From: a virus
Virus record (IMG/VR): IMGVR_UViG_3300036770_002203
Coordinates: 1 to 23,225 of that record
Length of the DNA: 23,225 bases
Direction: 5' to 3' (one strand)
Shown: in pieces, positions 1,240 through 19,477 of the stretch
Position numbering within the stretch: position 1 is the first letter of the stretch
Layout: each line of letters starts with the position of its first letter
Made by a program: the position numbers and the translations under genes
Notes under the pieces: generated by a model
The model's database searches: none
What the model was told of the DNA's origin: nothing
Seen by the model: only the letters and a program-made list of their open reading frames with translations

Positions 1240-1502
1240 ATCGACTCCAGACCATTCATGAGCTGCTCAGCGAACTGCAGCAGCAGCAGGTTGAACTGGA
1301 GCAGCGCGAGCAGCAGGTTGCCAAAGCAGCCGAGGAGCTCAGCCAAAGCAATGCCGTACAGCAGGCCCTGCGGTGTGGCCGGCAGGAGGAGCGCGGCCGG
1401 GTGGTCGCACTGATCGATCTCCAGCTCGAGCAGCTCAGCAGGGCCGGCCTCAATGCCATCAGCCTCCAAACCCTTCGACGCCAACTCCTTGAAGACGCAT
1501 GA
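1236..1502 (+). CDS. Small coiled-coil protein, function unknown
   Basis: The ATG at 1236 overlaps the previous stop as ATGA and gives 88 residues. Residues 5-45 are rich in leucine, glutamine and glutamate in heptad-like spacing (LLSELQQQQVELEQREQQVA), which predicts an uninterrupted coiled coil. A short arginine/glycine break (CGRQEERGR) follows, then a second amphipathic helix (VVALIDLQLEQL). No catalytic motif or membrane segment is visible. The gene ends in a four-base overlap with the alpha-CTD-like gene. A dimeric scaffold or accessory role is possible. I do not recognise the family. Confidence 0.75.
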   Translation: MNRLQTIHELLSELQQQQVELEQREQQVAKAAEELSQSNAVQQALRCGRQEERGRVVALIDLQLEQLSRAGLNAISLQTLRRQLLEDA

Positions 1503-1819
1503 CCAAGCCAGTACGCCTATCACCAGGGCAGGCCCTCAGCCTCTGGTACGACCAGCGGGGTAGTGAGGAGAGCAAGGTGATCGCCTTTGCCAATGCCCTC
1601 GCCAATCACTACCTCACCACCAATCACCGGCACGTACCGCTATCTGATCTGCAGCTGCCGACCCTCTACTACGGCGCCCTCCGGCGTGCCGGATACAAGT
1701 GGATCCATGAGGTGGCGCCACTGCCGGAAACCAGCTTGCGCACCATCCGCCATATCGGATCAGTCGGCGCAACGGTCATCACTGATTCCATCGCCAGGTT
1801 CCACCGTGACAAGAACTGA
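1499..1819 (+). CDS. Small protein with RNA polymerase alpha-CTD-like helix-hairpin-helix domain
   Basis: The product has 106 residues and its ATG overlaps the preceding stop by four bases. Residues 47-102 can be laid on the C-terminal domain of the RNA polymerase alpha subunit without gaps. LSDLQLPTLYYGALRRAGY corresponds to the first helices, VAPLPETSLRTIRHIG to the helix-hairpin-helix, and ATVITDSIARF to the last helix. The key E. coli DNA-contact residues are not kept: the R265 position is leucine, N268 is glycine, K298 is valine and S299 is glycine. UP-element binding of the standard type is therefore doubtful. The N-terminal 45 residues are not an alpha-NTD and may carry a different contact. 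A sigma factor in the same operon suggests, but does not prove, a role in altering host RNA polymerase. A general HhH domain is the alternative. Confidence 0.75.
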   Translation: MTKPVRLSPGQALSLWYDQRGSEESKVIAFANALANHYLTTNHRHVPLSDLQLPTLYYGALRRAGYKWIHEVAPLPETSLRTIRHIGSVGATVITDSIARFHRDKN

Positions 1820-1820
1820 A

Positions 1821-1997
1821 ATGGCCCAAGCCCTGGCCAATGCCCAGGACCGCCCCTGGTACGTCGTCACCCCCCGCAACGGGCGGGCATTCATCACGCC
1901 ATCACTGGCACAGGCCGCCAACCACACGTCGATGCTTAAGGTTTTGCCTGTTGCTGATCTCAGTCCAGACCGCTACAGTTCACGGGTCTGGTCTTAG
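1821..1997 (+). CDS. Small hypothetical protein (58 residues)
   Basis: The ATG lies one base after the stop of the alpha-CTD-like gene. The product reads as a compact small protein: an N-terminal helix (MAQALANAQDRP), a strand (WYVVTPRNGRAFIT), a short helix (SLAQAANHTSMLK) and a C-terminal strand and tail (VLPVADLSPDRYS). There are no cysteines and no membrane segment. It keeps the close spacing of the operon, and the following gene begins two bases after its stop. The gene falls below usual length cut-offs for gene calling. No family is recognised. Confidence 0.5.
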   Translation: MAQALANAQDRPWYVVTPRNGRAFITPSLAQAANHTSMLKVLPVADLSPDRYSSRVWS

Positions 1998-1999
1998 TC

Positions 2000-2200
2000 A
2001 TGCGCACCTCTGACGGCAATCACCGGCTGGTCAGCTGCCGCGGCCAGCTCTTTCGAATCGTTGATGGCAGGAGGGTCTGGCTTGATCAGCCCCCTGCCCA
2101 CATCCTTCCTGATCTCCTCCATGGCACTCTCCTCTCGCCTCCACCTGATCGCAGTCTTGATCCTGACTGCCGCGGCCATGCTGCTAGCCGGGCCTGTTGA
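2000..2200 (+). CDS. Small hypothetical protein
   Basis: This 66-residue product starts two bases after the previous stop. The first 45 residues look protein-like, with a beta-rich stretch (HRLVSCRGQLFRIVDGRRVW) followed by LDQPPAHILPDLL. The last 20 residues are rich in serine, proline and arginine (SPPPDRSLDPDCRG) and lie where another frame encodes a membrane segment. The 3' part may therefore be a non-selected overlap. No clear Shine-Dalgarno sequence precedes the ATG. Function is unknown. Confidence 0.45.
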   Translation: MRTSDGNHRLVSCRGQLFRIVDGRRVWLDQPPAHILPDLLHGTLLSPPPDRSLDPDCRGHAASRAC

Positions 2201-2264
2201 AACCAGCCTGCAGCGCTCCTGCTCCAGCTACGCGCCCTCCCCTGCGGCCTGCAGCCAATGGTGA
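2121..2264 (+). CDS. Small exported or membrane protein overlapping its neighbour
   Basis: The ATG at 2121 gives 47 residues: a basic N-terminus (MALSSRLH), one hydrophobic segment (LIAVLILTAAAMLLAGPV), then a short tail with two cysteines (SLQRSCSSYAPSPAACSQW). This is the shape of a signal peptide or single-pass membrane peptide. Third codon positions are strongly G/C, as in the real genes around it. The 5' half overlaps the end of the gene at 2000-2200 in another frame, and the stop overlaps the start of the exonuclease gene by seven bases. A longer form from TTG at 2061 is possible. Function is unknown. Confidence 0.45.
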   Translation: MALSSRLHLIAVLILTAAAMLLAGPVETSLQRSCSSYAPSPAACSQW

Positions 2265-3172
2265 GCGCAACCAAGCACCAAGCGGTGGTGCTGCCGGCAA
2301 TGCCCCGGCAGGACTACGAAAAGCTGAAGGGGTGGAACGCCAGCCTGCTGAAGGTGGCGATCACCCGCACCCCGGCTCACGCATGGCACGCCTTCCTGTC
2401 ACCAGACCGGCCGCCATCGAAGGATTCACCAGCCTTCAGGATCGGCACGCTGCTCCACCAGGCGCTGCTGGAGCCTGAGGAATGGCAGGCGATTGTGCCC
2501 TGCACCAATGGCCCCACCACCAAGGCCTTTGCTGAAGCTGCCAGGGCTGCAGCAGCGGAAGGCAAGACCATCGCCCAGGCCAATGAGCACCAGCTGGCCG
2601 CGGCGATGGCTGAATCTGTCCATCAGCACGCTGCCCTTGGGCCGTGGTTCAAGCCAACGCCGGAGAACCTGCAGCTCAATGAGCTCACCCTGCACTGGAT
2701 TGACCAGACCAGTGGGCACCAATGCAAGGGCCGGCTGGATGCGGTGCGGATCACAGACGACGAGATCCTGATCCTTGACCTGAAGACCACTGCCGACGCC
2801 AGCACGTCGGAGTTCGGCAAGTCAGCAGCGAACTACCACTACCTGCTGCAGGCGGCGTTCTATGCCGATGGCCTGTTCCACTGCGCACGCTCCCTCGAGC
2901 AGGTGCTGGGCCTGCCGGAGGGTGCACTGATCGGCCGGCCGGTGGCGTTTGAGTTTGTGGCGATTGAGAAGGAGCAGCCGTATCAGGTTGCCCGGTATCG
3001 CCTCACCAATGACCAGGCCTCAATGGGTCGGCGGTTGTATCGCCGTGCCCTGCAGGCCGTTGTCGCTGCATCAGAGCTGGGCTGGTGGCCCGGTTACGAC
3101 ATTGCGCCGGTGCCCCTGGAGCTGCCGCCGTGGGCATGGATGCACCTTGAACACCTCGCTTCTGAAGACTGA
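2258..3172 (+). CDS. RecE-like PD-(D/E)XK exonuclease (DUF3799/exodeoxyribonuclease VIII type)
   Basis: A nuclease of 304 residues. The expected motif order of the RecE/RecB/Cas4 nuclease superfamily is present. First comes G-T-L-L-H-Q-A-L-L-E-P at 63-73, with the histidine at 67. A conserved glutamate follows at 142 (LNELTLHW). K-G-R-L-D-A-V at 157-163 contains the metal-binding D161. I-L-D-L-K-T-T at 172-178 contains the D-x-K catalytic pair (D174, K176). Y-H-Y-L-L-Q-A-A-F-Y-A-D-G at 193-205 provides the Q and Y of motif IV. Such enzymes resect double-stranded ends 5' to 3', and the product is loaded with a phage annealing protein. No annealing partner is certain in this window; the truncated gene at the left edge is one candidate. 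The final TGA shares a base with the next ATG. Confidence 0.88.
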   Translation: MVSATKHQAVVLPAMPRQDYEKLKGWNASLLKVAITRTPAHAWHAFLSPDRPPSKDSPAFRIGTLLHQALLEPEEWQAIVPCTNGPTTKAFAEAARAAAAEGKTIAQANEHQLAAAMAESVHQHAALGPWFKPTPENLQLNELTLHWIDQTSGHQCKGRLDAVRITDDEILILDLKTTADASTSEFGKSAANYHYLLQAAFYADGLFHCARSLEQVLGLPEGALIGRPVAFEFVAIEKEQPYQVARYRLTNDQASMGRRLYRRALQAVVAASELGWWPGYDIAPVPLELPPWAWMHLEHLASED

Positions 3173-3342
3173 TGGCCCGTATCGAGATGCCGAACATCCG
3201 CCCTGACCGTTACGCCGGTGTACGGGTGGTGCCTGTTGAAAGCCTGCGTGACCTGCGCCGGCTGATGGTGTCCATCCTCTGGCTGCAAGCACTGTTCCTG
3301 GTGCTGCAGGTGGTGGTGGTAGCGAAGCTGGTGCAGCCATGA
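3172..3342 (+). CDS. Small membrane protein (56 residues)
   Basis: The ATG shares one base with the stop of the exonuclease gene (TGATG), and the stop overlaps the next ATG as ATGA. Coupling on both sides strongly supports a real gene despite its size. The N-terminal 30 residues are polar (MARIEMPNIRPDRYAG, then VESLRDLRRL). The C-terminal half is a single hydrophobic helix (VSILWLQALFLVLQVVVV) ending in AKLVQP, which predicts a C-terminal membrane anchor with the N-terminus in the cytoplasm. No family is recognised. Confidence 0.65.
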   Translation: MARIEMPNIRPDRYAGVRVVPVESLRDLRRLMVSILWLQALFLVLQVVVVAKLVQP

Positions 3343-3533
3343 AGGATCCGTACTGCCTCTGCAGCTCACTCGAATGGAAGCTCGGCATTCACATGGCCGA
3401 GTGGCAGGCGGCACGTGAGCTTGCCTACCGAATGAGCAAGGGTGGCGATCAGATTGAGAAGGCCCACTTTGATGGTGTGGTCCGGCTTCTGCGGGAGCAC
3501 TTGGCTCTGCTCAATGCCGAGCAGCAAGGGTAA
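3339..3533 (+). CDS. Small hypothetical protein (64 residues)
   Basis: It starts in an ATGA overlap with the small membrane protein gene, and its TAA overlaps the sigma factor start by one base (TAATG). The product is mostly helical (EWKLGIHMAEWQAARELAYR and then a leucine-rich stretch VVRLLREHLALLNAEQ). Two cysteines near the N-terminus (CLCSS) do not complete a zinc site. Its fixed place directly before the sigma gene makes it a candidate partner, but nothing in the sequence shows that function. Confidence 0.65.
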   Translation: MKDPYCLCSSLEWKLGIHMAEWQAARELAYRMSKGGDQIEKAHFDGVVRLLREHLALLNAEQQG

Positions 3534-4549
3534 TGGCAGCCGCATCTGGCCTGGGCTGGTGGCTGGATCAGATCGGTCGTATCCCCCTGCTCACGCCAGC
3601 GGAGGAGATCGAACTGGGCAATCAGATCCAGGCCTGGCTGCATCACCCTGATGGCCCTGAAGCCTGCCCCCCTGGTATCAAACGCCGCGGCCGAAGGGCC
3701 AAGGAGCGCTTTGTACGCGCCAACCTCAGACTTGCCGTTTCATACATCAGCAAGCACTGCCACCGGCTGGCCAAGAAGACCACCACCGAGGATCTGATCC
3801 AGGCTGCCAATGAGGGCCTGATCCGTGCGGTGGAACGCTTCGACCCACACCGCGGCTACCGATTCTCCACTTATGCGTACTGGTGGATCCGACAAGCGGT
3901 CAACCGGCACATTGATCAGCACGGCCGGCTGGTCGCTATCCCCGGCTCCCATAGCCAGCACCTGGGCCGCCTCGGGCCAATCACCCGGCGACTCGAGCGT
4001 GAGCTGAACCGCACCCCCACACGCGAGGAACTGGCGGCTGAGCTGGGCGTGAGCATGGCCGTGTTCGAGCAGCTGCTGATCAATGCCCGGCCCATCTCCA
4101 GCCTGGATGTGCAGCTGGATGACGATGGCCCAGATCTAGGTGATGTGGTCGCCACGTATGACCAGACGCTGGAGGAGCAGGAAGAGCAGCAGGATCGGTG
4201 GCGGCAGATTGAGCAGCTGCGTGGCCTGATCCGCAAACTGCCCCGGACAGATCGTGACCTGCTGTCGATGGCCTGGGGGCTGGACGGCGAGGAAGTCAAG
4301 CCGAAGGAACTGGCGGCACGGTATGGGTTGAGCGTGCGGCAGCTGGAGCAGCGGCTGGAGGGCCTGCAGCAGCAGCTACGTCATCAGGCAGTGCAGCTGG
4401 TCTTGATCGCCATCCCCAGGCAGCCGGTGGTGGCGGTGTCAAAGGTGGTGAAGCGGCGGCGGGTGAAGGTGGCGCCGGGGCAGCTCAGCCTCTTAACTCT
4501 TGCGCCCAGCGGTAGTGCTCAGCTGACGGCGCAGGCCATCCCGGCTTAG
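3533..4549 (+). CDS. Sigma-70 family RNA polymerase sigma factor, phage-encoded
   Basis: A protein of 338 residues. Region 1.2 spans about 11-36 (IGRIPLLTPAEEIELGNQIQ, very like cyanobacterial sigma factors). Region 2 spans about 60-135, with core-binding sequence ANLRLAV, EDLIQAANEGLIRAVERFD and the -10 recognition and melting part FSTYAYWWIRQAVNRHI. Residues equivalent to E. coli Y430, W433, W434 and Q437 are kept, while T440 is asparagine. Region 3 spans about 138-215. Region 4 spans about 228-285, but the -35 recognition helix is diverged: the usual V-T-R-E-R-V-R-Q-I-E is replaced by L-S-V-R-Q-L-E-Q-R-L. A basic 50-residue tail (including VVKRRRVKVAPG) extends beyond region 4. It probably directs host RNA polymerase to phage promoters. 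Region 1.1 is absent, so it is group-2-like. Confidence 0.93.
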   Translation: MAAASGLGWWLDQIGRIPLLTPAEEIELGNQIQAWLHHPDGPEACPPGIKRRGRRAKERFVRANLRLAVSYISKHCHRLAKKTTTEDLIQAANEGLIRAVERFDPHRGYRFSTYAYWWIRQAVNRHIDQHGRLVAIPGSHSQHLGRLGPITRRLERELNRTPTREELAAELGVSMAVFEQLLINARPISSLDVQLDDDGPDLGDVVATYDQTLEEQEEQQDRWRQIEQLRGLIRKLPRTDRDLLSMAWGLDGEEVKPKELAARYGLSVRQLEQRLEGLQQQLRHQAVQLVLIAIPRQPVVAVSKVVKRRRVKVAPGQLSLLTLAPSGSAQLTAQAIPA

Positions 4550-4766: not shown

Positions 4767-4959
4767 GGCGGTGCAGCAGCTACTGCAACAGTCTGCGCAG
4801 CCTGTATTTCCATTCATCACAGTTGGCCGGGATGAACGCGGATCAGCCTGCTGGCAGGTGGTAGGCCGTGACGTTGCAGTGCGGTGCTACTGCGGGCAGC
4901 GGGCAATAGAGATCATGCGCATGATGTGCCGCAGCAGGGGGATGCAAACGCCTCAGTAA
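4765..4959 (+). CDS. Small hypothetical protein with strong ribosome binding site
   Basis: A 64-residue product. The start at 4765 is preceded by GGAGGGG at 4755-4761, a strong Shine-Dalgarno match at proper distance, which favours it over the upstream GTG/ATG at 4720. The sequence has an N-terminal helix (MAVQQLLQQS), a beta-rich centre (PVFPFITVGRDERGSACWQV) and a short domain VAVRCYCGQRAIEIMRMMC. The cysteine spacing does not give a complete zinc site. The gene lies between two leftward genes, overlaps the lysin 3' end by seven bases and shares the CCATGG at its start with the leftward gene below it. Rightward transcription from the sigma operon would express it. Function is unknown. Confidence 0.45.
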   Translation: MAVQQLLQQSAQPVFPFITVGRDERGSACWQVVGRDVAVRCYCGQRAIEIMRMMCRSRGMQTPQ

Positions 4960-6029
4960 TCCCACCGGACGCGGGGCCGCCCTGCGCGGATACCCAGATG
5001 CACAAAGCCCTTGGGCGCCCCGTAGCCGACAGAGTATTGCCAATACTTGTCGCAGAAGGCCTGTACTGCCTTGATGTCAGCGCCATCGATCAGGAAGTCC
5101 ACGGCCCCCACACCAGGCCCGCTGTACAGGTGCTCGCTGCCACTGGCCCCACCCACCGCCTTGTTAATGGTGGGCGGACGGTAGCCACTGGTGATGATGA
5201 TCGGCTTGTGGCCGAAGTTCATGCGCACCCGCTCCAAGAAGGCTGCTAGTTCTGCCGCAGTCTCGACTTGATAAATATGGTCAAAGCGGCGGGCCTCCTG
5301 ATCCAGGGCGAACTCACCCAGGCGGATGTGAGGCGTCAGGCGGGTGGAGAAGGAGGAATCAGGCGTGACCTTGGCGGGCATGGGTACAGGCTGCTGAAGG
5401 GTCTTGCCCACGAACAGGGCCACCTCCGCATTGCGCCTGCGCGTCAGGCCCTCAAGCACCTTGTCCCCTGCTTTGTTCCAGCGGGGCAACTCCTCTGAAA
5501 CGACCTTGACCCGATCCTCGTTGGCATTCAGCCGCTTGCGCAGGGTCGAGTCTTCCAGTGCAGCAAGGCCCACGTTGTAGGCAAAGGAGACCAGCGCAGC
5601 GATCTGATTGCCGCTCCACTTCTTGCTGTTGGGGATCAGGTGGAACACCCCAGGAGCGAACAGGTCAAAGAGTGCGGTCTGCAGCAGGTAGTCCGCCTGC
5701 TGCACCGTGATCACATCGTCCTTGCGGACAGGGCCACCACTGGGGCCGGGGTATCGCGTGGTGCCGTACCCAATCGTCCACACCCCTGCCGGGCACTTGT
5801 AGGCCTCGAGGCGCAGGCCCTCCCATTCCTTGATCATGGCTAGGGCTGGCGCCAGCCAGTCGGGATCCGGCTGCTTCCCGGCTTGGCTCCAGGTGTGGAA
5901 CCATTCATTCTCCCGGTGCAGCAGGCTGGCGGGGATCAGCTCGCCCAGCTGCTGGATGGCAGCGATCTGATGCGGCAGTCCCTTGTAGTAGCGGAACAGA
6001 TCAAGGAACTGAACGGGCGTCTTGGTCAT
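4953..6029 (-). CDS. Bifunctional endolysin: GH24 muramidase plus M15-type peptidase
   Basis: A protein of 358 residues with two cell-wall hydrolase domains. Residues about 60-210 are a T4/lambdoid-type GH24 lysozyme with the E-8-C-5-T arrangement: E70 in EWEGLRLEAYKCPAG, C79 and T85 in the WTIGYGTT strand. The later AALVSFAYNVG and LTRRRNAEVALF helices are typical of the family. Residues about 232-358 are a peptidase M15-type domain (ITSGYRPPTINKAVGG, SEHLYSGPGVGAVDF and FVHLGIR), giving the expected metal ligands H300, D311 and H344. GH24 cleaves the glycan and M15 enzymes cleave stem-peptide bonds. There is no signal peptide, so a holin should release it. The ATG overlaps the small membrane protein upstream as ATGA. 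Confidence 0.93.
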   Translation of the reverse strand: MTKTPVQFLDLFRYYKGLPHQIAAIQQLGELIPASLLHRENEWFHTWSQAGKQPDPDWLAPALAMIKEWEGLRLEAYKCPAGVWTIGYGTTRYPGPSGGPVRKDDVITVQQADYLLQTALFDLFAPGVFHLIPNSKKWSGNQIAALVSFAYNVGLAALEDSTLRKRLNANEDRVKVVSEELPRWNKAGDKVLEGLTRRRNAEVALFVGKTLQQPVPMPAKVTPDSSFSTRLTPHIRLGEFALDQEARRFDHIYQVETAAELAAFLERVRMNFGHKPIIITSGYRPPTINKAVGGASGSEHLYSGPGVGAVDFLIDGADIKAVQAFCDKYWQYSVGYGAPKGFVHLGIRAGRPRVRWDY

Positions 6030-7424: not shown

Positions 7425-8042
7425 CTATCCACCAGTTGCAGCGCCTGGGCTTAGCGATGCATTGACAGTGATCGTGATGCCTGTGACATTGGCATCACCT
7501 GTTGCGCTGCCGCCAGATACTGATGCAGTTGCCGACAGGGTGGCACCACTGAAGGCTGTATCACCAGCTTGCAGTGATACACCGACAGATGACCGCATAC
7601 CAACTGCGGCAGCGATGCTGGCATTGATCCGCAGCTTGGTGGCTGGGATAACAGCGCCATAATCAAACGCCATTGCCTCAAGCACAACGCTGACATTGGC
7701 CAGGGCACCCTTTCGGCTTTCCACCTGCACCGGCTCTACATACCGCCACCGTGTACCGCCTGACACCAAGTCGGCTGCATGCCCCTGCCAGATCACTGCC
7801 GGCAAGACAAACGGCACCAGCCCGCCCTGCTGCAAGCTGTAGTGCTCAAGCAACAGCAAGGCCTCAGCATCAGAGATGTTTTCGTAGGCAAGCGTCAGGC
7901 GTAGACCAGCATTGGTGAATGGCGTCAGCCCTGTGGCATAGCGCACTGATCCTGATGGCCATGCTTCTTCCGCCACCATCGGGAAATCACCGGCCAGGTC
8001 GTATGACCTGCTTCTTGGTTCAATCGCTGGAAATGCTGGCAT
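7425..8042 (-). CDS. Tail protein with C-terminal low-complexity beta domain (paralogue of the preceding gene)
   Basis: This 205-residue product has a first 130 residues of the same design as the gene transcribed just before it (8045-8428). Shared elements are an initial M-x-A-F-P-A-x-x-P-x-S-R motif, a central stretch (LRLTLAYENISDAEALLLLE), an FVLPA-x-x-W segment and a closing W-R-Y-V-x-P-V-Q-V motif. These resemble minor tail proteins common in cyanophages. Residues 140-205 are extra: alanine/serine/glycine-rich strands (ATLSATASVSGGSATGD) that may form an Ig-like or fibre-like module. It follows the paralogue after only two bases. Confidence 0.75.
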   Translation of the reverse strand: MPAFPAIEPRSRSYDLAGDFPMVAEEAWPSGSVRYATGLTPFTNAGLRLTLAYENISDAEALLLLEHYSLQQGGLVPFVLPAVIWQGHAADLVSGGTRWRYVEPVQVESRKGALANVSVVLEAMAFDYGAVIPATKLRINASIAAAVGMRSSVGVSLQAGDTAFSGATLSATASVSGGSATGDANVTGITITVNASLSPGAATGG

Positions 8043-8044
8043 TG

Positions 8045-8428
8045 TTAGACGGTGACGGTTGCAGCTTCTGGCACCATCTCAAGCTCCAAGGAAAGGTTAT
8101 GCCGCCCGCAACCTACGTCTTGAACCTGCGGACGGTCTACATATCGCCAGCTGTACCCGTTCAGGGTTGGATCAGTCGTCCCCGTCCATGATTCGGCCGG
8201 CAGGTCAAATGTCTTGAACAGCCCAGCGGCACTGATGAAATGAGTTCTGAAGCTGATCATCTGGGCATTGGTCAGCGAGTCGAATGTCAACGACAGCCGG
8301 TAGCCATTCACTGCATTGGAATGCCGCACCTGCGTTTGATAGCCGCCCATTGAACGCAAAGCGGTATGCAGGTGACGACCTGGTGTCAGCCGCCTTGATG
8401 CTGGGATCAGTGCAGGGAATGCCGCCAT
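8045..8428 (-). CDS. Tail protein, first of two tandem paralogues
   Basis: The product has 127 residues. It begins MAAFPALIPASRRLTPG and contains YRLSLTFDSLTNAQMISFRT, then the FDLPAESW segment and Y-S-W-R-Y-V-D-R-P-Q-V-Q. It matches its neighbour 7425-8042 motif by motif but lacks the C-terminal low-complexity domain. Gaps of two bases on both sides place it firmly in the tail operon. It is probably a minor tail or tail-tip protein; the family is common among cyanophage and proteobacterial phage tail genes, but its structure is not known to me. Confidence 0.75.
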   Translation of the reverse strand: MAAFPALIPASRRLTPGRHLHTALRSMGGYQTQVRHSNAVNGYRLSLTFDSLTNAQMISFRTHFISAAGLFKTFDLPAESWTGTTDPTLNGYSWRYVDRPQVQDVGCGRHNLSLELEMVPEAATVTV

Positions 8429-8430
8429 GG

Positions 8431-9375
8431 CTACAAGTTGGGCGGGCTGAAGGCTTCACCGTTGTACCGCAAGCCCTTGGTGTACCGCACGCCAGCTACG
8501 TCAATGTATGAACGTGTCGCCGGGTTTGATGTTTCAGGGTATATGTACTCCGCAGAAGCGCCGCCAACATACGGCATGAATGAATCCAGCTGGCCAAGGT
8601 ATCCAGATGGGATCCTGTCAGGAGTGATTGAGCCACTGGTGGATGTGCCGGTCAGTGGCGTGCCGTCAAAGTAAATCGTGATCTGACCGTCAAACGTGAT
8701 CTCACAAGCGTAGTGATGCCAGCCGGCATCGTCTGAGTCGTTACCAGAAAGCACAGTCTTTCGTACGGCGTATGTACCATTTGAGTTCCTGTACCGGCCT
8801 GCAATCTCGATATACGAGGGATCTTTGTCAATGTCAACGTAGACAAAACCGGTGAGCGAAAGCAGCGGCACCTGAGGTGTCGGCGCATTGAAAGAACCGC
8901 TGTTGTCCTCACCCACTGGTTCAGCTGTAATTGCGCTGATAATCTCTGCGCTCTTTGGTGAGCCGTATGTCACGGCTGGGTGTGGGCCAAAGTCAATCCA
9001 GCTTTCCAGCGTGATGCCCCCCAGCCCAACGCCTGGTGTCACCACTGCCCCCTGATACCCCAGTGATCGCCAGCCCAATGGGTTCACTCGCATCTTGGGC
9101 GCTCCACTGCTGGGGCCACCAGTGCTCGAGTATGCAATCGACCCCTGGTTTGCCGATAGGAAGGTGCCAGTTGCCAGGTCTGTATCGGTCAGGTTGTACA
9201 GGTCTGGCGTCGGGTCACTGGATTGCGCTTGCCAGGTTGCCCCATCAATCGCCGGCCTGAAAATCAGTGATTCAAACCGCACTCCATAATCCTTAGGTGC
9301 TGGCAGCTGACGTGCTGAATATCCACCTTGTGATGCGGATGCAATGCCGACCTTCCTTTTGAGGTTGACGGTCAT
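8431..9375 (-). CDS. Tail protein with LamG/concanavalin-like lectin domain
   Basis: The chosen start is the ATG at 9375, which shares one base with the TAA of the tail-tip gene (TAATG). A longer frame to 9474 lies inside that gene and is rejected. The product has 314 residues. The C-terminal half has the features of a LamG/ConA jelly roll: ITLESWIDFGPHP, PSYIEIAGRYRNSNG, GWHHYACEITFDGQ, then ITIYFDGTPLTG and a late GQLDSFMPYVGGASA. Such domains bind carbohydrates. In this position, right after the tail tip, the protein is a candidate receptor-binding protein for cyanobacterial lipopolysaccharide or capsule. Specificity cannot be read from the sequence. Confidence 0.82.
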   Translation of the reverse strand: MTVNLKRKVGIASASQGGYSARQLPAPKDYGVRFESLIFRPAIDGATWQAQSSDPTPDLYNLTDTDLATGTFLSANQGSIAYSSTGGPSSGAPKMRVNPLGWRSLGYQGAVVTPGVGLGGITLESWIDFGPHPAVTYGSPKSAEIISAITAEPVGEDNSGSFNAPTPQVPLLSLTGFVYVDIDKDPSYIEIAGRYRNSNGTYAVRKTVLSGNDSDDAGWHHYACEITFDGQITIYFDGTPLTGTSTSGSITPDRIPSGYLGQLDSFMPYVGGASAEYIYPETSNPATRSYIDVAGVRYTKGLRYNGEAFSPPNL

Positions 9376-12341
9376 TACTCTTCTTCCACCGGCCTGTGAT
9401 AAGTCAGTCTGCCCACAAGCAGCCCAGTGAAGTCCGGTGCACTCCCGCCAGCGGCTTGCGCTGTGCCGCTCCAAGCGCCTGCGTCATATTCCCACTGCTC
9501 AGCATCTGGCGGGAACGTCGAGCTGTTCTGCGTTGGTGGGCCTGCATTGGGTTCAGTGCCACCAACTGGCCCAATCCACTGCTCGTTGGCCGTATCCCAG
9601 CTCCATTCATCAGCGCCAGCGCCACGCCACTCCCACGCATCACCGGTCCACGCCCAGCCAGCTGGTGGTGAGGGGTACTCCCAGCCGCTTGTCGCTGGGT
9701 TCCATCGCCACGATCCGAAGGTCATGGAGACTGCTGGGATCGTCAGGTTGCCTATCGCCTCAACGGTCTGCAGATCCTCCGACAGATCCGTAATGGCAAG
9801 AATCAGGTCATTGGCGCCGTTGGGGATGGCGGGCTTGTTCACTTCCGCTTGGGCCACCACCGTGTAGTACCCACTCTCTGCTGGTGGCTCGGACGGCAAT
9901 GGCGACACCGGCCCAGATGGAGGGTTTGCAGGCCGCTCAGCTGCATCTGCAGCAGGCAAGGTGCGCAACCACCGCTGCTTTGCTGCTTGCCATGTCCACC
10001 CTGTTACGGCTGCACCGTCGTATGCCCAGCGCTGCTCGGTCTGATCCCATGACCAGTCAGCGTTTGTCCCTGTCCATTCCCACTCCTGGGTGGCGTCATC
10101 CCATGCAAAGTCTCCAAGCTCCTCGGTGCCGGCCCAGCTCCAGCTGCTGCCGCTATACAGCCAGATGCCAGGTGTCAGCAGGGTGACAGCGCCTGCGTAT
10201 GCCTTGATCGTGAACGACTGGGTTGCCGATGTGTCTAACGCCTCTGCTGTCTCCGATTGGTACCCTCCACCAGACCACGACACAATCGACAGCTGCCTAG
10301 TGGTATCAGCACTAAGGCTGTCGCCGTAGCCATTGATTGTCAGGATTGCCGAAGTCTCGCCTGTCGGGATGAAGGCTGAATACTCCTCAATGCCATCAGT
10401 GATCCGAAGGCTGAGGCCAACGTCACTAGGTGGCGTGTTGACAGTGACCGTGACCCTGACCGCAGCAAAGTTGGGCTGCGACAGCAAATACCACACGTCT
10501 GGGTAGCTCACCAGTACCTGGCTGAAGCTCACCGCAGCGGTCAGATCATCACCAGCCGACAAGCCGGAGAGATCTTCCACTTCCTGCACCCCTGGCCCCC
10601 AGCCGTCGCCCTCATCCACCACGCCATCAGGCCATGGGTTTTCCGGTTTGGGATCAGGCGTAGGGTCTGGATCAGGGAACTCAGGATCTAGCACCCACTC
10701 GCCAAGATCTGGATCCCACGTCCAGCCAGGGATATCAGGGTTGGGAATCCAATCACCCTCCTCTGGATCCCACGTCCAATCAGGCTCCTCATCTGGATCG
10801 GGATAGGGGTAGATATCAGGATCTGGCAGCTCTGGCTCCCAATCAGGCCATGGGCCTGGATCAGGATTCACCGTCTCATCATCATCAGCATTGATGTCGC
10901 AGTTGACGCTGGCGCGGCCGGTCGGCAGCAGCAGCCCATTGCCCTGCACCCTGCTCACATCCAGCGCCACCAAGCTCCTGCCTTGGTCGTCCACCGGGAA
11001 GTGCGTGAGCTCGAGCTGGATCTCGCCAGTTACTGACCGCCCCACACGATCCACTTCATACAGGTAGTCATGCACCGTGGCGTCACCAACTGAAGCGGTG
11101 CGGTTCAGACGCAGCCGCACAATGTCGCCAGGTGCAAGGCTTGCATTGAACGCCCCAGGCCTAAGGCTGCATACCATCCGGTGATCGATGTACCGGCGCC
11201 TAGCAAGGATGTATGCCCCCACCTTCAGCGCATGGGGTTCAGTCGTGCAGAACGCAGAAAGGTCGTGCTGCTCAAATGGCCCATCCACAGCGCTTTGCCC
11301 GTAGCGCACCTCTGCTGTACGTGCCAACCCCAGGCCATCATCAGGTTGCTGTCGCCATACAACCCGTACACAGAATGGCTGCCGCTCTACCCTGCTGCTG
11401 TAGCTGATCTCCAAGCTCTCAGGCAGTACATGATCTTCGGTGAAGGTGAAGATCCACGGCACCGCAGAGGTGCTAATGGTGCCGTCTGTGTTCTGCGGTA
11501 GCAGTGGCCGCAGGCCGCGCTTACCTCCACGCCTGGATTCACGCAGCAGGAAGTAGCCAAGATTCTCGGCATACCAGTCCGCCAGATTGGATGGCTCTTT
11601 GATCTCAATGTTGCACCACAGCCCATTGGCATCAGTGAACTCTGCTGCATTGAGCAATGCGTTCTGATCAATCAGCTCCTCTGGCACCCGGGATGTTCTG
11701 CGTAGCAGCCACAGCACCAGGTCGGCAATGTTGTTGCTAGGCCCTTCTGTGCCTTCAATCAGCCGGTCAACATGCATCCCCCCGCGGACAAAGGCATGCA
11801 CCTGCTGATCCCATTGCGTGAACGGATGGGGGATGGTGTTGGTAAAGCTGGCGGTCGTGACACCTTGATACCCACCAGTGCCACTGCCGCAGTACAGCGG
11901 GCAGTTGGGGATGGCATCTTCAAACCCGGTCTGCGCAACAATGAAGTTCCCCGGCGCCCAATTGCCTGCCCTGCGGTTGTACGCCTGCGTGAAGGTGCCA
12001 ACCCTGCAGCTCTGCTGGAATACATCACGCACCTGCAGCCCATCGATCTCGCCCTCGCACAGCAGCAAGTGATACCTCACCGTCACGTCGTTGCTGCTGT
12101 TGTTGGTGTACCTGGCTTCTGTCGCCGCTGGGCTGATCAGCACACCACCGGCATTGTTGATCCGCCGGCCAAAGACAATCGGCACAGGGTCGCCAATTCG
12201 CGCTGCACGCTGCGGTGTTTCCAGCGGGTCACCACCACTCTTGGCACTGGCCTGGGAGTTTGGCGTGCTGATCTGACTGCTTGAACTGGTGGGGCTGCCA
12301 GTCAGGCCAATCGTTTCAACGCGAATCGAGATCTCTGTCAT
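9375..12341 (-). CDS. Large tail-tip / host-specificity protein (J-like) with tryptophan-rich repeats
   Basis: The ATG at 12341 overlaps the previous stop as ATGA; a GTG at 12350 would add three residues. The product has 988 residues. Residues 40-470 match J-like tail-tip hubs: PQRAARIGDPVPIVFGRRIN near the start, VRYHLLLCEGEIDGL, then a region with YILARRRYIDHRM and LAPGDIVRLR. Residues about 492-582 are an acidic, Asp/Pro/Trp-rich linker. Residues about 600-720 and 820-870 look like beta domains. Eight copies of a ten-residue W-x-W-(D/N)-x5-W motif lie in three clusters (residues 522-549, 745-791, 878-922). It should form the baseplate hub and central tip that contacts the host. The hub part is confidently assigned, the C-terminal half is not. 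Confidence 0.85.
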   Translation of the reverse strand: MTEISIRVETIGLTGSPTSSSSQISTPNSQASAKSGGDPLETPQRAARIGDPVPIVFGRRINNAGGVLISPAATEARYTNNSSNDVTVRYHLLLCEGEIDGLQVRDVFQQSCRVGTFTQAYNRRAGNWAPGNFIVAQTGFEDAIPNCPLYCGSGTGGYQGVTTASFTNTIPHPFTQWDQQVHAFVRGGMHVDRLIEGTEGPSNNIADLVLWLLRRTSRVPEELIDQNALLNAAEFTDANGLWCNIEIKEPSNLADWYAENLGYFLLRESRRGGKRGLRPLLPQNTDGTISTSAVPWIFTFTEDHVLPESLEISYSSRVERQPFCVRVVWRQQPDDGLGLARTAEVRYGQSAVDGPFEQHDLSAFCTTEPHALKVGAYILARRRYIDHRMVCSLRPGAFNASLAPGDIVRLRLNRTASVGDATVHDYLYEVDRVGRSVTGEIQLELTHFPVDDQGRSLVALDVSRVQGNGLLLPTGRASVNCDINADDDETVNPDPGPWPDWEPELPDPDIYPYPDPDEEPDWTWDPEEGDWIPNPDIPGWTWDPDLGEWVLDPEFPDPDPTPDPKPENPWPDGVVDEGDGWGPGVQEVEDLSGLSAGDDLTAAVSFSQVLVSYPDVWYLLSQPNFAAVRVTVTVNTPPSDVGLSLRITDGIEEYSAFIPTGETSAILTINGYGDSLSADTTRQLSIVSWSGGGYQSETAEALDTSATQSFTIKAYAGAVTLLTPGIWLYSGSSWSWAGTEELGDFAWDDATQEWEWTGTNADWSWDQTEQRWAYDGAAVTGWTWQAAKQRWLRTLPAADAAERPANPPSGPVSPLPSEPPAESGYYTVVAQAEVNKPAIPNGANDLILAITDLSEDLQTVEAIGNLTIPAVSMTFGSWRWNPATSGWEYPSPPAGWAWTGDAWEWRGAGADEWSWDTANEQWIGPVGGTEPNAGPPTQNSSTFPPDAEQWEYDAGAWSGTAQAAGGSAPDFTGLLVGRLTYHRPVEEE
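9576..9710 (-). repeat. Third cluster of tryptophan decapeptide repeats (coding)
   Basis: Encodes WRWNPATSGW, WAWTGDAWEW and WSWDTANEQW. A partial unit WEYDAGAW follows about 27 residues later near the C-terminus. Repeat spacing is again about 18 residues. Confidence 0.8.
9969..10109 (-). repeat. Second cluster of tryptophan decapeptide repeats (coding)
   Basis: Encodes FAWDDATQEW, WSWDQTEQRW and WTWQAAKQRW with eight- or nine-residue linkers. Aromatic positions 1, 3 and 10 are fixed and the middle is polar. The spacing of about 18-19 residues per unit matches the first cluster, which points to one repeating fold rather than random tryptophans. Confidence 0.8.
10695..10778 (-). repeat. First cluster of tryptophan decapeptide repeats (coding)
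   Basis: Within the tail-tip gene this stretch encodes WTWDPEEGDW and WTWDPDLGEW, separated by IPNPDIPG. The flanks are Asp/Pro-rich (PDPDEEPD before, LDPEFPDPDPTPDPKP after). The two units share W1, W3, D4, P5, G8 and W10. Related units recur in two further clusters of the same protein (coding positions 9969-10109 and 9576-9710). Confidence 0.85.
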
Positions 12342-12802
12342 AGCTGGCACGGAGTCCCGATCAACTGGGAGGTCATTGTGCGAGGAGGAACCTGAATGCC
12401 AATCGGTGCCAGCGTTGATCCCAGTTCTATTTCTAGCCAGGTCAGGCGACCCTTCACCCCAATCACCTCCCCTACATACGACGCAATCAACTGCTGCTGC
12501 TCCTGGGGAGCGTCATTACCTTGCTGTGGATCGAACTCGTACTGGTCAACCTGGATCAGGTAGCCAAAGCGCAGCGCGGTGCGGATGGCAGGCAGTGTGA
12601 CGCTGGTGGATGGAACCCCAACCGTCAGGCTGCCTTCAGCACTTACATCACCAGCGATGATGCCGTCAATACTGAATGGCTGAAAGCTCCACTGCTTACC
12701 ATCCCATGTCACTGTCTGGTTGACGTAATAGCTTTGCCACAGCTGATAGTCGGTAGCCCCTGAGTAAATCCGCAGGTACTGCGAGACTGCAGTGATAGCC
12801 AT
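12338..12802 (-). CDS. Minor tail protein, L-like
   Basis: A 154-residue protein from the ATG at 12802, which shares one base with the tape-measure stop. It sits between the tape measure and the J-like tip, the place of lambda M/L/K-type genes and of the distal tail adaptor. The sequence begins ITAVSQYLRIYSGATDYQLW and has WSFQPFSIDGIIAGDVSAEG in the middle. It ends in an R-x-M-T-S-Q-L-I-G-T-P-C-Q-L tail similar in placement to the cysteine-containing tails of L-like proteins. Only one cysteine is present, so an iron-sulphur cluster as in lambda L is not supported. Function is inferred mainly from order. Confidence 0.72.
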   Translation of the reverse strand: MAITAVSQYLRIYSGATDYQLWQSYYVNQTVTWDGKQWSFQPFSIDGIIAGDVSAEGSLTVGVPSTSVTLPAIRTALRFGYLIQVDQYEFDPQQGNDAPQEQQQLIASYVGEVIGVKGRLTWLEIELGSTLAPIGIQVPPRTMTSQLIGTPCQL

Positions 12803-15534
12803 CACGCCACCCCAATCGCTCGCCGGCCTGCAGGTGTCCGCAGCGTGGCATAGATCTGCGTGGCGGTCTGCTTCACGGCAGACTCCAGATCGCCAAGCGT
12901 GACGTACCGCTCACCCTGCTGTTCCATTACAGGGCCAGTGCTGATGTTGATCATCGGTACCGCTCCGCCACTGGTGGCTTGCCCGCTGTTGGCAGTTGTC
13001 GGGATCACTTCTGCGCCACGGGCACCAGCCAGGTACCGGCTCGAGGCAGCGGCCATCTTGCTCTCCGGCACGATGTACTCCCGCTCGCCACCTTCACCCA
13101 CCATTGCCAGCGTGGGGCGCTGCACAACGCCACCCACTGCAAAGCTGGGAATCGTTACCAGTGGGATGGTTGGAATAGCACTGAGCTTGACCGTAGCCCG
13201 CAAGCTGTTGACACCTGCAATCAGCTTGTTGATCATGCCAATCACGCCATTGATGATCCCACCAATGCCATTGACAACACCCTGAAACGCACCGCGCACA
13301 CTGCCTGCAATCGACTGGTAGGCACGGCTCAGTGCTTCGGCGCCCCTGGTGACGATATCGCCCATCCAATCCTGCAAGCCCTGCCATACGCTCTTGATTG
13401 GTTCAACCACATTGGACTGGAAGAAGCTGCTGATCCCCTGCCATGCTGTCTTTACCAGGTTGGCAATCTGACTGGCAGTAGAGCCGACAAAGGCAATAGC
13501 AGCATTCCATCCCGTCTTGATTGGCTCTACGACATACCGAGTGAACAGGCTGGACAGTGCATCCCAAGCCTGTTGCACCACGCCAGGTAGCTGACGACCC
13601 AAGACAACAAACGGCTCGATCAGCACCTGATACGCCAGGCTTGTCCACCAGGTGAACCAGCCAGATACAAAGGACTTGACCGCATCAAAGGCGGTCACAA
13701 ACAGCTGGCGGATTCCATTAAGCGCATCGGTGATTGGACCCAGGAAGTTCTGCCTGAACCCGGTAGCGACCCAATCAAAGAAGCCACTTACGGTGCCCTT
13801 GACAGCATCCCAGGCGCTCCTGGCTGCATTCACCAGTGCTGTGCCAACCGTGATCCACGGCTGGACGTAAGCCTTGAAGAGGAATCCTGCGAACCATGAG
13901 AAGAAGCCAGTGATCACGGCCTTTACGCCATTCCACACCGTGACGGCAGCCTCTTTCGCTCCTTCCCACAGGCCAATCCAGAACTCACGGATCGGTGCAC
14001 CCCATTCCCATAGCCACTTCACAAACTCAAGCAGCGGCTTGCGGAAGGCAATCACCAATGCCACTACCCCGGCGACCAGTAGAACAGTCAGGCCAACTGG
14101 GCCAGTCACCACCGCCAGCACCGCTACCACCATGGCCTTGAAGGCGGCGATGATGCCGGCCATTACAGGCACCACTGCACCTAACCAGCCGGCAATCGAT
14201 GCCGCAAAGGCTGATGCACTGACTGCCGCGCTGACCGCAAGAATGATTCCCTTCAATGCGGCAAAGGAGGTGATCAATGCCGAGATGAACGGGGCCACTG
14301 CGACAAAGCCGACAAAGGCCACCGACAGCGCCGAGATCACGGGAGCAAGACCTGGCACGTTCTGAACCAGCCAAGTGATTGGCTTGAGGATTTCCGTCAG
14401 TCCCTTGGCCAGCAGGTTCAAGCCGGGCAGCAGCGTGTCACCCACCACAATGGCCAGCGCCTGCATGTTGTTTTTGAACAGCTGGAGCTGGTTGGCAGTT
14501 GTTCCTGACCTTGCCTCAAACTCAGAAAGCATTGAGCCTGCATATTGCGAGCTGTTGGCAACTGAGCCGATGGCCTGATCAAACAGCTTCATGTTGGTAA
14601 TCAGCGGCGTAAGTGCTCGCGCTTCATCGCCAAACACTTCGCTGATCGTTGCTGTCCTTACTTCTGCCGGCAGCTTGCTGATTCGCAGGAACACATCTCT
14701 AATGGTGCCTACAGCGTCCACTTGCATCTGCTTGGCAACATCTCTCGCGGTAAGCCCGAGTCGGTTAAAAGCGCCCTCTTGCCGCTTGGTCGCAGTCTCT
14801 CCTTTGGTTAGTGCCTTGATCAGGTTGTTGAAACTGGTTGATGCAACTTCCGGTGCTGCACCCGCGGCGATCATTGCTGACCCCAGTGCTGCGGTTTGCT
14901 CTGCAGTCATCGCCACCTGCTTGCCAACAGCACCAGAGCGCAACATGAAATCAGTGATCTCCGATGCGGAGCTGGCCATGTTGTTGCTTAGGAAATTGAT
15001 GGCATCAGCCAGGTTCACCACTTCCGGCTGGCTTAAACCCATTGAAGTGCGCATCTTGGCCATGGCCTCACCCGCCTGACCGGCGGTGATATCAAAGGCC
15101 ACACCCATCTGCGCTGCAGTTCGTGTGAAATCCTCCAGGTCATTCTTGGCGATACCAGCCTGACCCGCTGCGGCCATGATCTCAGCCAAGCCTTCAGCGC
15201 TCACAGGGAGCTCTTTGCTTAAGTCCAGAATCGACTGCTTCATAGCATTGAAGCCAGCCGCATCCTCAAGCCCTGGCACCACCTTCCGCACATCGGCCAT
15301 GCTCGACTCGAAGTCGATTGCAGCCTTGACGCTGGCAGCCAGCCCGGCTCCCAAGGCAGCGGCGCCCACCGCAGCGGTCTGCCATGCTGCCGAATCGACC
15401 ATGGCCTTGAAGCCATTCTTTGCCGACTGTGCTGCGGCTTCAGCCTTCCCCAATCCGGCTTCAAGCCTGGTCAGATTTTCCAGGCCAGTGACCTGTGCAG
15501 CGATGCGCAGTACCGCCTGCAGATTCATTGCCAT
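12802..15534 (-). CDS. Tail tape-measure protein
   Basis: A 910-residue protein. Residues about 75-310 are the PhageMin_Tail core shared by tape measures (DFESSMADVRKVVPGLEDAA, LAEIMAAAGQAGIAKNDLED, TSFNNLIKALTKGETATKRQ). Residues about 395-500 are strongly hydrophobic, with several potential membrane segments. Residues about 505-760 carry spaced Trp/Phe residues and a repeated VVEPIK motif. Near residue 800 is the usual tape-measure C-terminal motif (FAVGGVVQRPTLAMVGEGG). The start at 15534 is set by AGGAGGT five bases upstream. At about 1.5 angstrom per residue, the common rule, the tail would be near 135 nm. The protein is packed with chaperones G/GT during assembly and may help DNA cross the membrane. 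Confidence 0.95.
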   Translation of the reverse strand: MAMNLQAVLRIAAQVTGLENLTRLEAGLGKAEAAAQSAKNGFKAMVDSAAWQTAAVGAAALGAGLAASVKAAIDFESSMADVRKVVPGLEDAAGFNAMKQSILDLSKELPVSAEGLAEIMAAAGQAGIAKNDLEDFTRTAAQMGVAFDITAGQAGEAMAKMRTSMGLSQPEVVNLADAINFLSNNMASSASEITDFMLRSGAVGKQVAMTAEQTAALGSAMIAAGAAPEVASTSFNNLIKALTKGETATKRQEGAFNRLGLTARDVAKQMQVDAVGTIRDVFLRISKLPAEVRTATISEVFGDEARALTPLITNMKLFDQAIGSVANSSQYAGSMLSEFEARSGTTANQLQLFKNNMQALAIVVGDTLLPGLNLLAKGLTEILKPITWLVQNVPGLAPVISALSVAFVGFVAVAPFISALITSFAALKGIILAVSAAVSASAFAASIAGWLGAVVPVMAGIIAAFKAMVVAVLAVVTGPVGLTVLLVAGVVALVIAFRKPLLEFVKWLWEWGAPIREFWIGLWEGAKEAAVTVWNGVKAVITGFFSWFAGFLFKAYVQPWITVGTALVNAARSAWDAVKGTVSGFFDWVATGFRQNFLGPITDALNGIRQLFVTAFDAVKSFVSGWFTWWTSLAYQVLIEPFVVLGRQLPGVVQQAWDALSSLFTRYVVEPIKTGWNAAIAFVGSTASQIANLVKTAWQGISSFFQSNVVEPIKSVWQGLQDWMGDIVTRGAEALSRAYQSIAGSVRGAFQGVVNGIGGIINGVIGMINKLIAGVNSLRATVKLSAIPTIPLVTIPSFAVGGVVQRPTLAMVGEGGEREYIVPESKMAAASSRYLAGARGAEVIPTTANSGQATSGGAVPMINISTGPVMEQQGERYVTLGDLESAVKQTATQIYATLRTPAGRRAIGVA

Positions 15535-18282: not shown

Positions 18283-18324
18283 GATCGAGGGGAGCTTCCA
18301 ACGGATCGAGGGGAGCTTCCAACG
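18283..18324 (-). repeat. Perfect 21-bp tandem repeat upstream of the zinc-ribbon/HTH gene
   Basis: Two identical adjacent copies of a 21-base unit (plus strand: GATCGAGGGGAGCTTCCAAC, then G) occupy 18283-18303 and 18304-18324. They lie in the 109-base stretch between the stop of the upstream gene and the ATG at 18271. If translation began at TTG 18322 the repeat would encode a duplicated LEAPLDP. Confidence 0.92.
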
Positions 18325-18380: not shown

Positions 18381-18956
18381 TCACTGCATCAGCTCCACCC
18401 GCAGGCGATCCACCGGCACACCGGGCAGCACGCCACCCTTCACATCGGCATAGCGATAGATCCGCCCCTGCAGGTCGATCACATCCTCACGCCCGAAGTT
18501 CCTGATCACCACCCGCTGCAGGTGGTTCAGGGGGTGACAGGGGAAGCCGTGCTTCTCGGAGCACTTGGCCACGTCGATCCGGTTGGTGAACGTGAAGCGA
18601 TCCGGGGCGGTGTCCCGCTTGAAGTCCACCACCCCGCCAGATTGCTTACTGATGATGTGCCCCTGCGGGCCGAACTCCAGCGTGTCGGCACCCTTGCTGC
18701 CATCGAAGCGCCAGCGGGTGAAGATGCCCCGATCCAAGTAGAACCCGGTCACGGCCTTGCGTGGGTCACGCTCCCGCTTGAGCGGTGATGCGGTCTTCAT
18801 GCGCAGGCCGGTCAGATGCGCGGCAGGCTCAGCGGTCTGGATTTGGAGCACGACAGCACCAGCATTCCGCACCACGCGGGCGGAGGTGCCTGCGGTGTTG
18901 ATCGCATCCCAGTTCGTGGTGGCCTGCAGCAGGGCCAAGGCAGCAGCGGCAATCAT
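18381..18956 (-). CDS. Hypothetical protein of 191 residues following the metalloprotease
   Basis: The ATG overlaps the protease stop as ATGA. The N-terminus (MIAAAALALLQATTNWDAIN) is hydrophobic but short and lacks a basic start, so a signal peptide is doubtful. The rest is beta-rich with patterns such as VTGFYLDRGIFTRWRFDG and VVDFKRDTAPDRFTF, then a pair of cysteines (AKCSEKHGFPCHPLNH) and a late IDLQGRIYRYADVKGG. The length equals that of lambda tail protein Z and the place is right for it, but I see no sequence likeness. It is probably a virion-associated protein of unknown role, perhaps linked to the protease encoded before it. Confidence 0.7.
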   Translation of the reverse strand: MIAAAALALLQATTNWDAINTAGTSARVVRNAGAVVLQIQTAEPAAHLTGLRMKTASPLKRERDPRKAVTGFYLDRGIFTRWRFDGSKGADTLEFGPQGHIISKQSGGVVDFKRDTAPDRFTFTNRIDVAKCSEKHGFPCHPLNHLQRVVIRNFGREDVIDLQGRIYRYADVKGGVLPGVPVDRLRVELMQ

Positions 18957-19477
18957 TGTTTGGCTCCATAGAAAACGAGCATTCCTCGGCTGCGCTTTGG
19001 CTTGGCGGCAGCCTCAGTCATCAACAGTTCACCCTGGCCCCAGATGGACTTCAACGCCTTCCAGTCCTTCTTGGTGAAGTCGTAGATCCCGTTCATGCTG
19101 GGCTGCATCAGGCTGTCGGTGCCCATTGGCACGTGGCCCAGCCCGAGCACATGACCCAGCTCATGGCGGAAGATGGTGGTGGAGAAGCCGCGTTCAGGTA
19201 GGCGGATCTCCCAGCCGTTGTCATCCCAGACAGCAGCGCCGGATGCACCAGCAGGCAGCTCGCCGTGACCGATGACCAGATCAGCAGAGCGGGATGGCTT
19301 GACCCGCTTGAAGCTGATCCCGGCGAGGCGGTCGTCCACCTCAGCGATCAGACCCTTCATCAGGTCGCGGTACAGGGGTGTGTAGCTGCCTTTGCTGAAG
19401 CGGTAGGTCAGCGTGCCATTGCGTGAGACAAAGGAGCGGGTGTGGTTGACCAGCTCGTCAGCGATCAGGTTTGCCAT
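18953..19477 (-). CDS. Metzincin-type zinc metalloprotease in the structural gene cluster
   Basis: A 174-residue protein. It has the complete metzincin zinc signature H-E-L-G-H-V-L-G-L-G-H (residues 105-115), so the ligands are H105, H109 and H115 and the catalytic base is E106. The Met-turn follows as S-L-M-Q-P with M124, the short spacing typical of matrixin-like proteases. The N-terminal half has the expected alternation (LTYRFSKG, helix to residue 50, ISFKRV, SADLVIGHGELP). No signal peptide or propeptide is visible. A GGAG lies seven bases before the ATG, supporting this start. A protease made with the virion proteins could mature the capsid or tail, or act on the host envelope. Substrate is unknown. 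Confidence 0.85.
   Translation of the reverse strand: MANLIADELVNHTRSFVSRNGTLTYRFSKGSYTPLYRDLMKGLIAEVDDRLAGISFKRVKPSRSADLVIGHGELPAGASGAAVWDDNGWEIRLPERGFSTTIFRHELGHVLGLGHVPMGTDSLMQPSMNGIYDFTKKDWKALKSIWGQGELLMTEAAAKPKRSRGMLVFYGAKQ

Follow-up and report, generated by a model that had tools for sequence, protein, structure and literature searches.

Putative tandem tryptophan hairpins in the C-terminal half of a J-like phage tail-tip protein

Introduction

The J-like tail-tip protein encoded in IMG/VR virus record IMGVR_UViG_3300036770_002203 carries clusters of regularly spaced tryptophans in its C-terminal half, which raises the question of what these residues build and what they may do for the virus. 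The window is the whole stretch of DNA analysed, a virus record of 23,225 bases (positions 1 to 23,225) in which the tail and head genes described here sit on the minus strand. On a slim balance of probability, we read the C-terminal half as an adhesin-like extension of tandem Trp-zipper-type hairpins, with cluster 1 as a stalk and clusters 2 and 3 as probable sites of host contact. This reading builds on a motif, its conservation, its restriction to one clade and its variation in copy number. The repeat arrangement is real and selected, and apparently undescribed; no published description of it was found in the open-licence literature. To our knowledge, short autonomously folding Trp-rich hairpins are known mostly as designed peptides, and we know of no W-hairpins in lambda gpJ or Tal tail-tip proteins. 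The parts of the gene are as follows.

9375-12350, minus strand: open reading frame of the J-like (Tal-type) tail-tip protein, 991 residues, GTG start; phrog_27845; downstream of the tape measure and a 155-residue protein
10854-12272, minus strand: conserved hub half, residues 27-499; phrog_27845 match and identity to cyanosiphovirus tail proteins
10551-10889, minus strand: acidic, Pro-rich linker, residues 488-600, containing cluster 1; net charge -35 over 113 residues
10749-10778, minus strand: unit 1, WTWDPEEGDW (cluster 1); motif, predicted strands 525-528/533-536
10695-10724, minus strand: unit 2, WTWDPDLGEW (cluster 1); motif, predicted hairpin
10191-10523, minus strand: predicted Calx-beta / Ig-like beta-sandwich, residues 610-720; fold prediction, Foldseek and VIA
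10134-10163, minus strand: unit 3, WLYSGSSWSW, degenerate, opening cluster 2; predicted hairpin, aromatics kept in relatives L011 and L012
10080-10109, minus strand: unit 4, FAWDDATQEW(EW) (cluster 2); motif, predicted hairpin, DDAT loop as in GB1 and TrpZip4
10026-10055, minus strand: unit 5, WSWDQTEQRW(AY) (cluster 2); motif, predicted hairpin
9969-9998, minus strand: unit 6, WTWQAAKQRW (cluster 2); motif, predicted hairpin
9738-9869 and 9390-9419, minus strand: putative second beta-domain, strands in residues 828-871 and last strand in residues 978-987; DSSP on the model
9681-9710, minus strand: unit 7, WRWNPATSGW(EY) (cluster 3); motif, predicted hairpin, NPAT loop as in hairpin 2evq
9627-9656, minus strand: unit 8, WAWTGDAWEW (cluster 3, loop shifted); motif, predicted hairpin
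9576-9605, minus strand: unit 9, WSWDTANEQW (cluster 3); motif, predicted hairpin
9471-9494, minus strand: unit 10, WEYDAGAW, short and degenerate, near the C-terminus; predicted hairpin, aligning with RWTYNGTVW (L011) and RWLWNGSAW (L012)

Tryptophan units of the tail-tip protein

Units of the form aromatic-x-aromatic-x6-Trp begin at residues 525 and 543 (cluster 1), 748, 766 and 785 (cluster 2), and 881, 899 and 916 (cluster 3), with a spacing of 17-19 residues within clusters. A preliminary description of this DNA had placed eight such units in three clusters between 9576 and 10778, with aromatics at positions 1, 3 and 10 and about 18 residues apart, and all of this agrees with the translation of the reading frame. 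Its strict pattern W-x-W-(D/N)-x5-W holds for five of the eight (525, 543, 766, 881 and 916); the unit at 748 has an initial F, and those at 785 and 899 have Q and T at position 4. Two extra degenerate units, WLYSGSSWSW (730) and WEYDAGAW (953), bring the total to ten, arranged 2+4+4, and both keep their aromatics in L011 and L012. The first cluster lies, as had been noted, in an acidic linker: residues 488-600 have a net charge of -35, 32% D+E and 23% P. The corresponding linker of L011 has a net charge of -74.

Loose matches number nine against a shuffle mean of 0.29, and strict matches five against 0.02; none of 20,000 shuffles of the C-terminal half reached the observed counts. The ninth loose match, at 757, is the gap between two units and not a unit. 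Shuffling each cluster in place with its Trp content kept also gave 0 of 20,000 at the observed counts. As to membership in the Trp-zipper class, aromatics occupy positions 1, 3 and 10 in all main units, and position 12, that of the fourth zipper aromatic, varies by cluster and is aromatic in 12 of the 19 units of clusters 2 and 3.

Conservation and copy number

IMG/VR was scanned with the hub half, and the best 80 of 469 relatives were taken. Among these 80, the W-rich C-terminal half is present only in the window's own species (contigs L008/L005, L006 and L007) and in L011 and L012, whose hub halves are 78% and 70% identical to that of the window. In the remaining relatives the C-terminus is unrelated, about 120-340 residues long and free of W units. 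The W-rich sequences give three distinct rows, which group as a single monophyletic clade (support 100 in a quick tree), and searches started from the C-terminal half alone gave no contigs beyond those already found.

Copy number varies mainly in cluster 1, which has 0 copies in L012, 2 in the window and 11 in L011. The number of units in cluster 2 is constant in the clade, and cluster 3 gains one unit in L012. The repeat expansion suggested in the preliminary description is therefore found across these three close relatives for cluster 1, but not for the nearly fixed clusters 2 and 3. Its link to host-range evolution finds no support, as expansion is confined to cluster 1 and the aromatics of the other two clusters are invariant. 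In the clade comparison of clusters 2 and 3, Trp is invariant at 24 of 24 positions and aromatics stay aromatic at 29 of 29, against 27 invariant positions among the 103 non-aromatic ones. These two clusters have no DNA-level repeats.

Cluster 1 of L011 is a tandem array of the 18-residue unit GWTWDPVNEEWVADDDLL, encoded in 54-bp DNA units. Most unit pairs differ by 15-35% in nucleotides while the amino acids are held. Over the 16 unit pairs used, with saturated pairs omitted, mean nonsynonymous divergence (dN) is 0.09 and mean synonymous divergence (dS) is 1.16. The low dN relative to dS indicates that the unit is maintained by selection, and the dS between units indicates that the array is not a fresh duplication. 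Downstream of the array, at 5144-5220 of L011, there is a tandem repeat of Pro-Gly-Pro-Gln type, a second length-variable spacer, which is missing from the window.

Change within the species of the window is uneven along the protein. Between the window and L006, the first 487 codons have 23 base changes and 0 amino-acid changes; after codon 487 the counts rise to 50 and 13, with all 13 amino-acid replacements at residue 550 or later and none hitting an aromatic. This comparison indicates that the C-terminal half evolves faster than the hub half while keeping its aromatics. Host-contact regions often change fast.

Fold prediction and comparison with known hairpins

An AlphaFold model of the C-terminal half, built with four sequences, places a short strand pair at each of the ten units with low to moderate confidence. 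Numbered as model residue plus 494, the predicted strands are 525-528/533-536 and 543-546/551-554 in cluster 1; 728-733/736-739, 748-751/756-759, 766-769/774-777 and 785-788/793-796 in cluster 2; and 881-884/889-891, 899-901/906-908, 917-919/924-926 and 954-956/959-961 in cluster 3. Block means in cluster 2 reach a predicted local distance difference test score (pLDDT) of 83. Six units of the L011 array were also modelled, giving six hairpins all alike in shape. One hairpin per unit is thus predicted for both the window and the L011 array, in line with the modular repeat proposed in the preliminary description.

A beta-sandwich is predicted between the clusters. For residues 610-720 the best Foldseek match is the Calx-beta structure 3fq4 (prob 0.94, E 0.038). 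VIA gives a best Z of 7.3 to a mastigoneme protein and a Z of 6.7 to CALX-CBD1 3ead (3.4 Å over 98 residues), although a VIA Z near 7 may reflect merely a common arrangement. Cluster 3 would be inserted between the third and the fourth (last) strand of the second beta-domain. No BFVD entry was matched by Foldseek at E<=0.001.

The register of the unit, with aromatics at 1, 3 and 10 and a six-residue turn, equals that of TrpZip4 and of the GB1 hairpin. TrpZip4 (PDB 1LE3) is a designed Trp-zipper with the core WTWDDATKTWTW (PMC2427033), and the GB1 hairpin has the register W43-x-Y45-D-D-A-T-x-x-F52 (PMC9885153). Unit 4, FAWDDATQEWEW, has a DDAT loop. Unit 7, WRWNPATSGWEY, has an NPAT loop, and NPATGK is the loop of the hairpin 2evq, solved by nuclear magnetic resonance (PMC9885153). 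On the loop profile of the family, the NPATGK loop ranks within the top 0.4% among 299 aromatic-matched 12-mers. Like TrpZip4, the phage units have aromatics at 1, 3 and 10 (and at 12 in many); they have a six-residue loop and are expected to fold as autonomous hairpins. In contrast to the single peptides TrpZip4 and 2evq, they are natural, in tandem and part of a tail protein, and those of cluster 1 are without the fourth aromatic. The C-terminal hairpin of GB1 (protein G) is one hairpin within a globular domain, whereas the phage units are in tandem. We read the likeness to GB1 and TrpZip4 as convergence on a shared folding solution, not descent; phmmer searches of single units against the PDB gave only E>1, and no sequence relationship to GB1 was detected.

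Proposed role and alternatives

In the mechanism that we favour, each unit would be a self-folding 12-residue hairpin of the form [W/F]-x-W-[D/N]-x5-W-x-[W/Y], with cross-strand aromatic pairs and followed by a linker of about six residues. As in Tal/gpJ proteins, the hub half would seal the tail tube. Cluster 1, a strongly acidic string of hairpins of variable copy number, would join the hub to the first beta-sandwich and could act as a stalk of changeable length. Clusters 2 and 3 would be near-fixed hairpin blocks, attached to the Calx-beta-like sandwich or inserted into the second beta-domain. By analogy with gpJ-type proteins, they would lie at the distal end, where such proteins meet the host, and would most likely touch the surface of the cyanobacterial cell. 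The aromatic grooves between hairpins would be the probable ligand sites. The protein shares with lambda gpJ and Tal the gene order after the tape measure and the combination of a conserved hub half with a variable C-terminal half. The last 149 residues of lambda gpJ bind the receptor, and it differs from the present protein in that receptor-binding end and in its FN3-type repeats (PMC7291167). Units of this kind on another tail protein (L095, described below) and near tail genes also speak for the favoured mechanism.

Several results weigh against this mechanism. The clade is defined by only three independent sequences. The AlphaFold model of the C-terminal half rests on four sequences and has a mean pLDDT of 55.7 and a predicted template modelling score (pTM) of 0.40; the L011 array model has a mean pLDDT of 59.5 and a pTM of 0.25, and no packing between hairpins is predicted in it. 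Position 12 is aromatic in 0 of the 13 units of cluster 1, which could thus be no more than a reduced zipper. GB1's own DDATKT loop only reaches the top 9% of the aromatic-matched set, so that DDAT alone is a weak sign.

The preliminary description had raised carbohydrate binding and self-stacking as possible functions. Neither found support here: no known carbohydrate-binding family matches, and the unit looks autonomously folding, with no inter-unit packing in the array model. A related idea, which we consider unlikely, is that the hairpins join into a single unbroken aromatic solenoid that works like a choline-binding module and binds ligands between successive hairpins. Choline-binding repeats (PF01473, LytA/LytB) are likewise tandem, aromatic-rich hairpins with a linker of about six residues, 18-20 residues in all (PMC4471590), and may work alike; Foldseek ranks the LytB choline-binding module 7pl2 first for the array model, and the aromatics of clusters 2 and 3 are invariant. 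However, 7pl2 is matched only weakly (E 0.22, prob 0.12) and is missing among the VIA rows, the gene context differs, and the array model, with its low pTM, predicts no packing between hairpins. Choline_bind_1 (PF01473) finds nothing at E<=10 in the window or in the contigs of L011 and L012, whereas it matches 5 control genomes. An equally improbable reading takes the W units as a mechanical spacer only, a stiff negative stalk plus decoration without a ligand, and leaves host binding to the beta-domains or to neighbouring proteins. The variation of cluster 1 within its acidic Pro-rich linker, the strong purifying selection that the unit itself is under and its occurrence on the unrelated tail protein of L095 all suit a spacer, but a mere spacer would not need clusters 2 and 3 to be near-fixed in number with every aromatic kept.

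The gpJ-type proteins are trimers, and on this basis the array could be a trimeric fibre shaft of the triple beta-spiral type seen in adenovirus fibre and reovirus sigma1. This is very unlikely. For the array model VIA lists three structures, 1qiu, 1v1i and 6gao, each of them a fibre protein, and reovirus sigma1 is also among the Foldseek matches, but the VIA values (Z 2.4-3.1, root-mean-square deviation 7.4-8.4 Å) are far below trust. The triple beta-spiral repeat has 15 residues and a small hydrophobic core, as against 18 residues and a Trp-rich composition here, which counts against it as well. Least of all do we favour a low-complexity slippage repeat without function, which has next to no chance of being right: the tandem 54-bp units of L011 speak for it, but most unit pairs have diverged in nucleotides with their amino acids held, and clusters 2 and 3 have no DNA repeats, yet all their Trp are kept.

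Returning to the Trp-zipper hairpins, natural tandem repeats that retain all their Trp while the copy number changes between 0, 2 and 11 make a testable case of a tunable minimal module for adhesion or spacing at a phage tail tip. A bolder version, which we regard as doubtful, holds that tandem Trp zippers evolved naturally in a phage tail tip as an adhesive array of tunable length, which would hold on to the host envelope by aromatic grooves between the hairpins, and that the mini-motif is common to other tail and accessory proteins of marine phages as an undescribed, widespread repeat family.

Similar units in other proteins

The C-terminal half matches nothing credible by sequence in Pfam, PHROGs or the PDB, which agrees with the early impression that the repeat lies outside known tail-tip families. 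A phrog_7187 match occurs on L011 (E 6e-4). Matches by tblastn to Pseudomonas phage ThyX (E 0.1) were dismissed as chance.

The small marine phage proteins of phrog_7759 have paired [YW]-x-W-[DN]-E-x4-W units and lie near tail genes in the records examined. Each of these is a small protein of its own, though, and its Pro/Gly spacing is longer. The phrog_7759 profile gave no hmmscan match to the J-like protein at E<=10. In a comparison of hairpin-pair profiles, hhalign gave a prob of 82%, which none of 200 column shuffles equalled, for a motif that is short and Trp-dominated. If the link is true, it would give a structural reading to a marine phage protein family now listed as unknown.

A different tail-like protein in L095 (IMGVR_UViG_3300042905_002642, 163-3633) has three tandem [YW]QWDDQT[ST]SWR units. 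They stand at its N-terminus and are followed by Ig/FN3-like domains, in contrast to the J-like protein. The unit type is therefore not unique to the window phage; the arrangement appears to be new. An 18-residue two-unit pattern, searched in viral contigs and 85,000 genomes, found no J-type protein outside the clade. The bacterial matches to the pattern seem to be low-complexity or wrong-frame reading frames, except an actinobacterial WWWDGAHARW pair. Small secreted-looking proteins of Pseudonocardia (L235, L255 and L259) end in tandem 18-residue HAGWWWDGAHARWAPP units, perhaps another natural W-hairpin pair. A DNA scan of viral contigs for W-D-x5-W...W-x-W-D gave, among the matches listed, many tape-measure-like helices (WLWDKLKSVW) as well as low-complexity or wrong-frame reading frames, all rejected on reading the frame.

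Genomic setting

The surrounding genes are as follows.

22417-23223, minus strand: major capsid protein
Between the major capsid protein and the tape measure, minus strand: small head/tail genes
12802-15534, minus strand: tape measure, PhageMin_Tail match
12338-12805, minus strand: 155-residue protein, phrog_25799, between the tape measure and the J-like gene
After the J-like gene and before the endolysin, minus strand: small tail genes
4953-6029, minus strand: endolysin, phage lysozyme and peptidase M15
3533-4549, plus strand: RpoD-type sigma factor

The hub half (residues 27-499) matches the tail protein profile phrog_27845 with E 7.8e-196 and is 46-55% identical to tail proteins of S-LBS1, S-CBS1 and S-CBS3. 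The gene order of tape measure, one small protein and J-like protein is identical in these three phages. Pfam Phage-tail_3 (PF13550) scores 14.8 bits on the J-like protein, under its curated cut-off of 23. The closest annotated phages are these same cyanosiphoviruses, which infect Synechococcus, so the host of the window virus is likely a cyanobacterium.

The protein directly after the J-like gene (8431-9378, minus strand) matches Laminin_G_3 below the threshold (E 2.8e-4). L011 shares the N-terminus of this protein, GGYSARQLP, and L012 does so more loosely; the remainder looks divergent. Inside the head-tail gene block, a Matrixin-like metalloprotease is encoded at 18953-19477 on the minus strand (PF00413 E 1.1e-6, HELGHVLGLGHV); such a protease is unusual in this part of a phage genome. 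A tail-protein-like reading frame at 19927-20988 on the minus strand (phrog_5939, E 2.5e-52) is sited between the capsid and tail genes. At 18283-18324 a perfect 21-bp tandem duplication (LEAPLDPLEAPLD) occurs where a reading frame starts, possibly reflecting a miscalled start or a duplication that arose recently. The neighbouring genes at 7425-8042 and 8045-8428, both on the minus strand, look like a tandem gene duplication, because both match phrog_15525 (minor tail protein).

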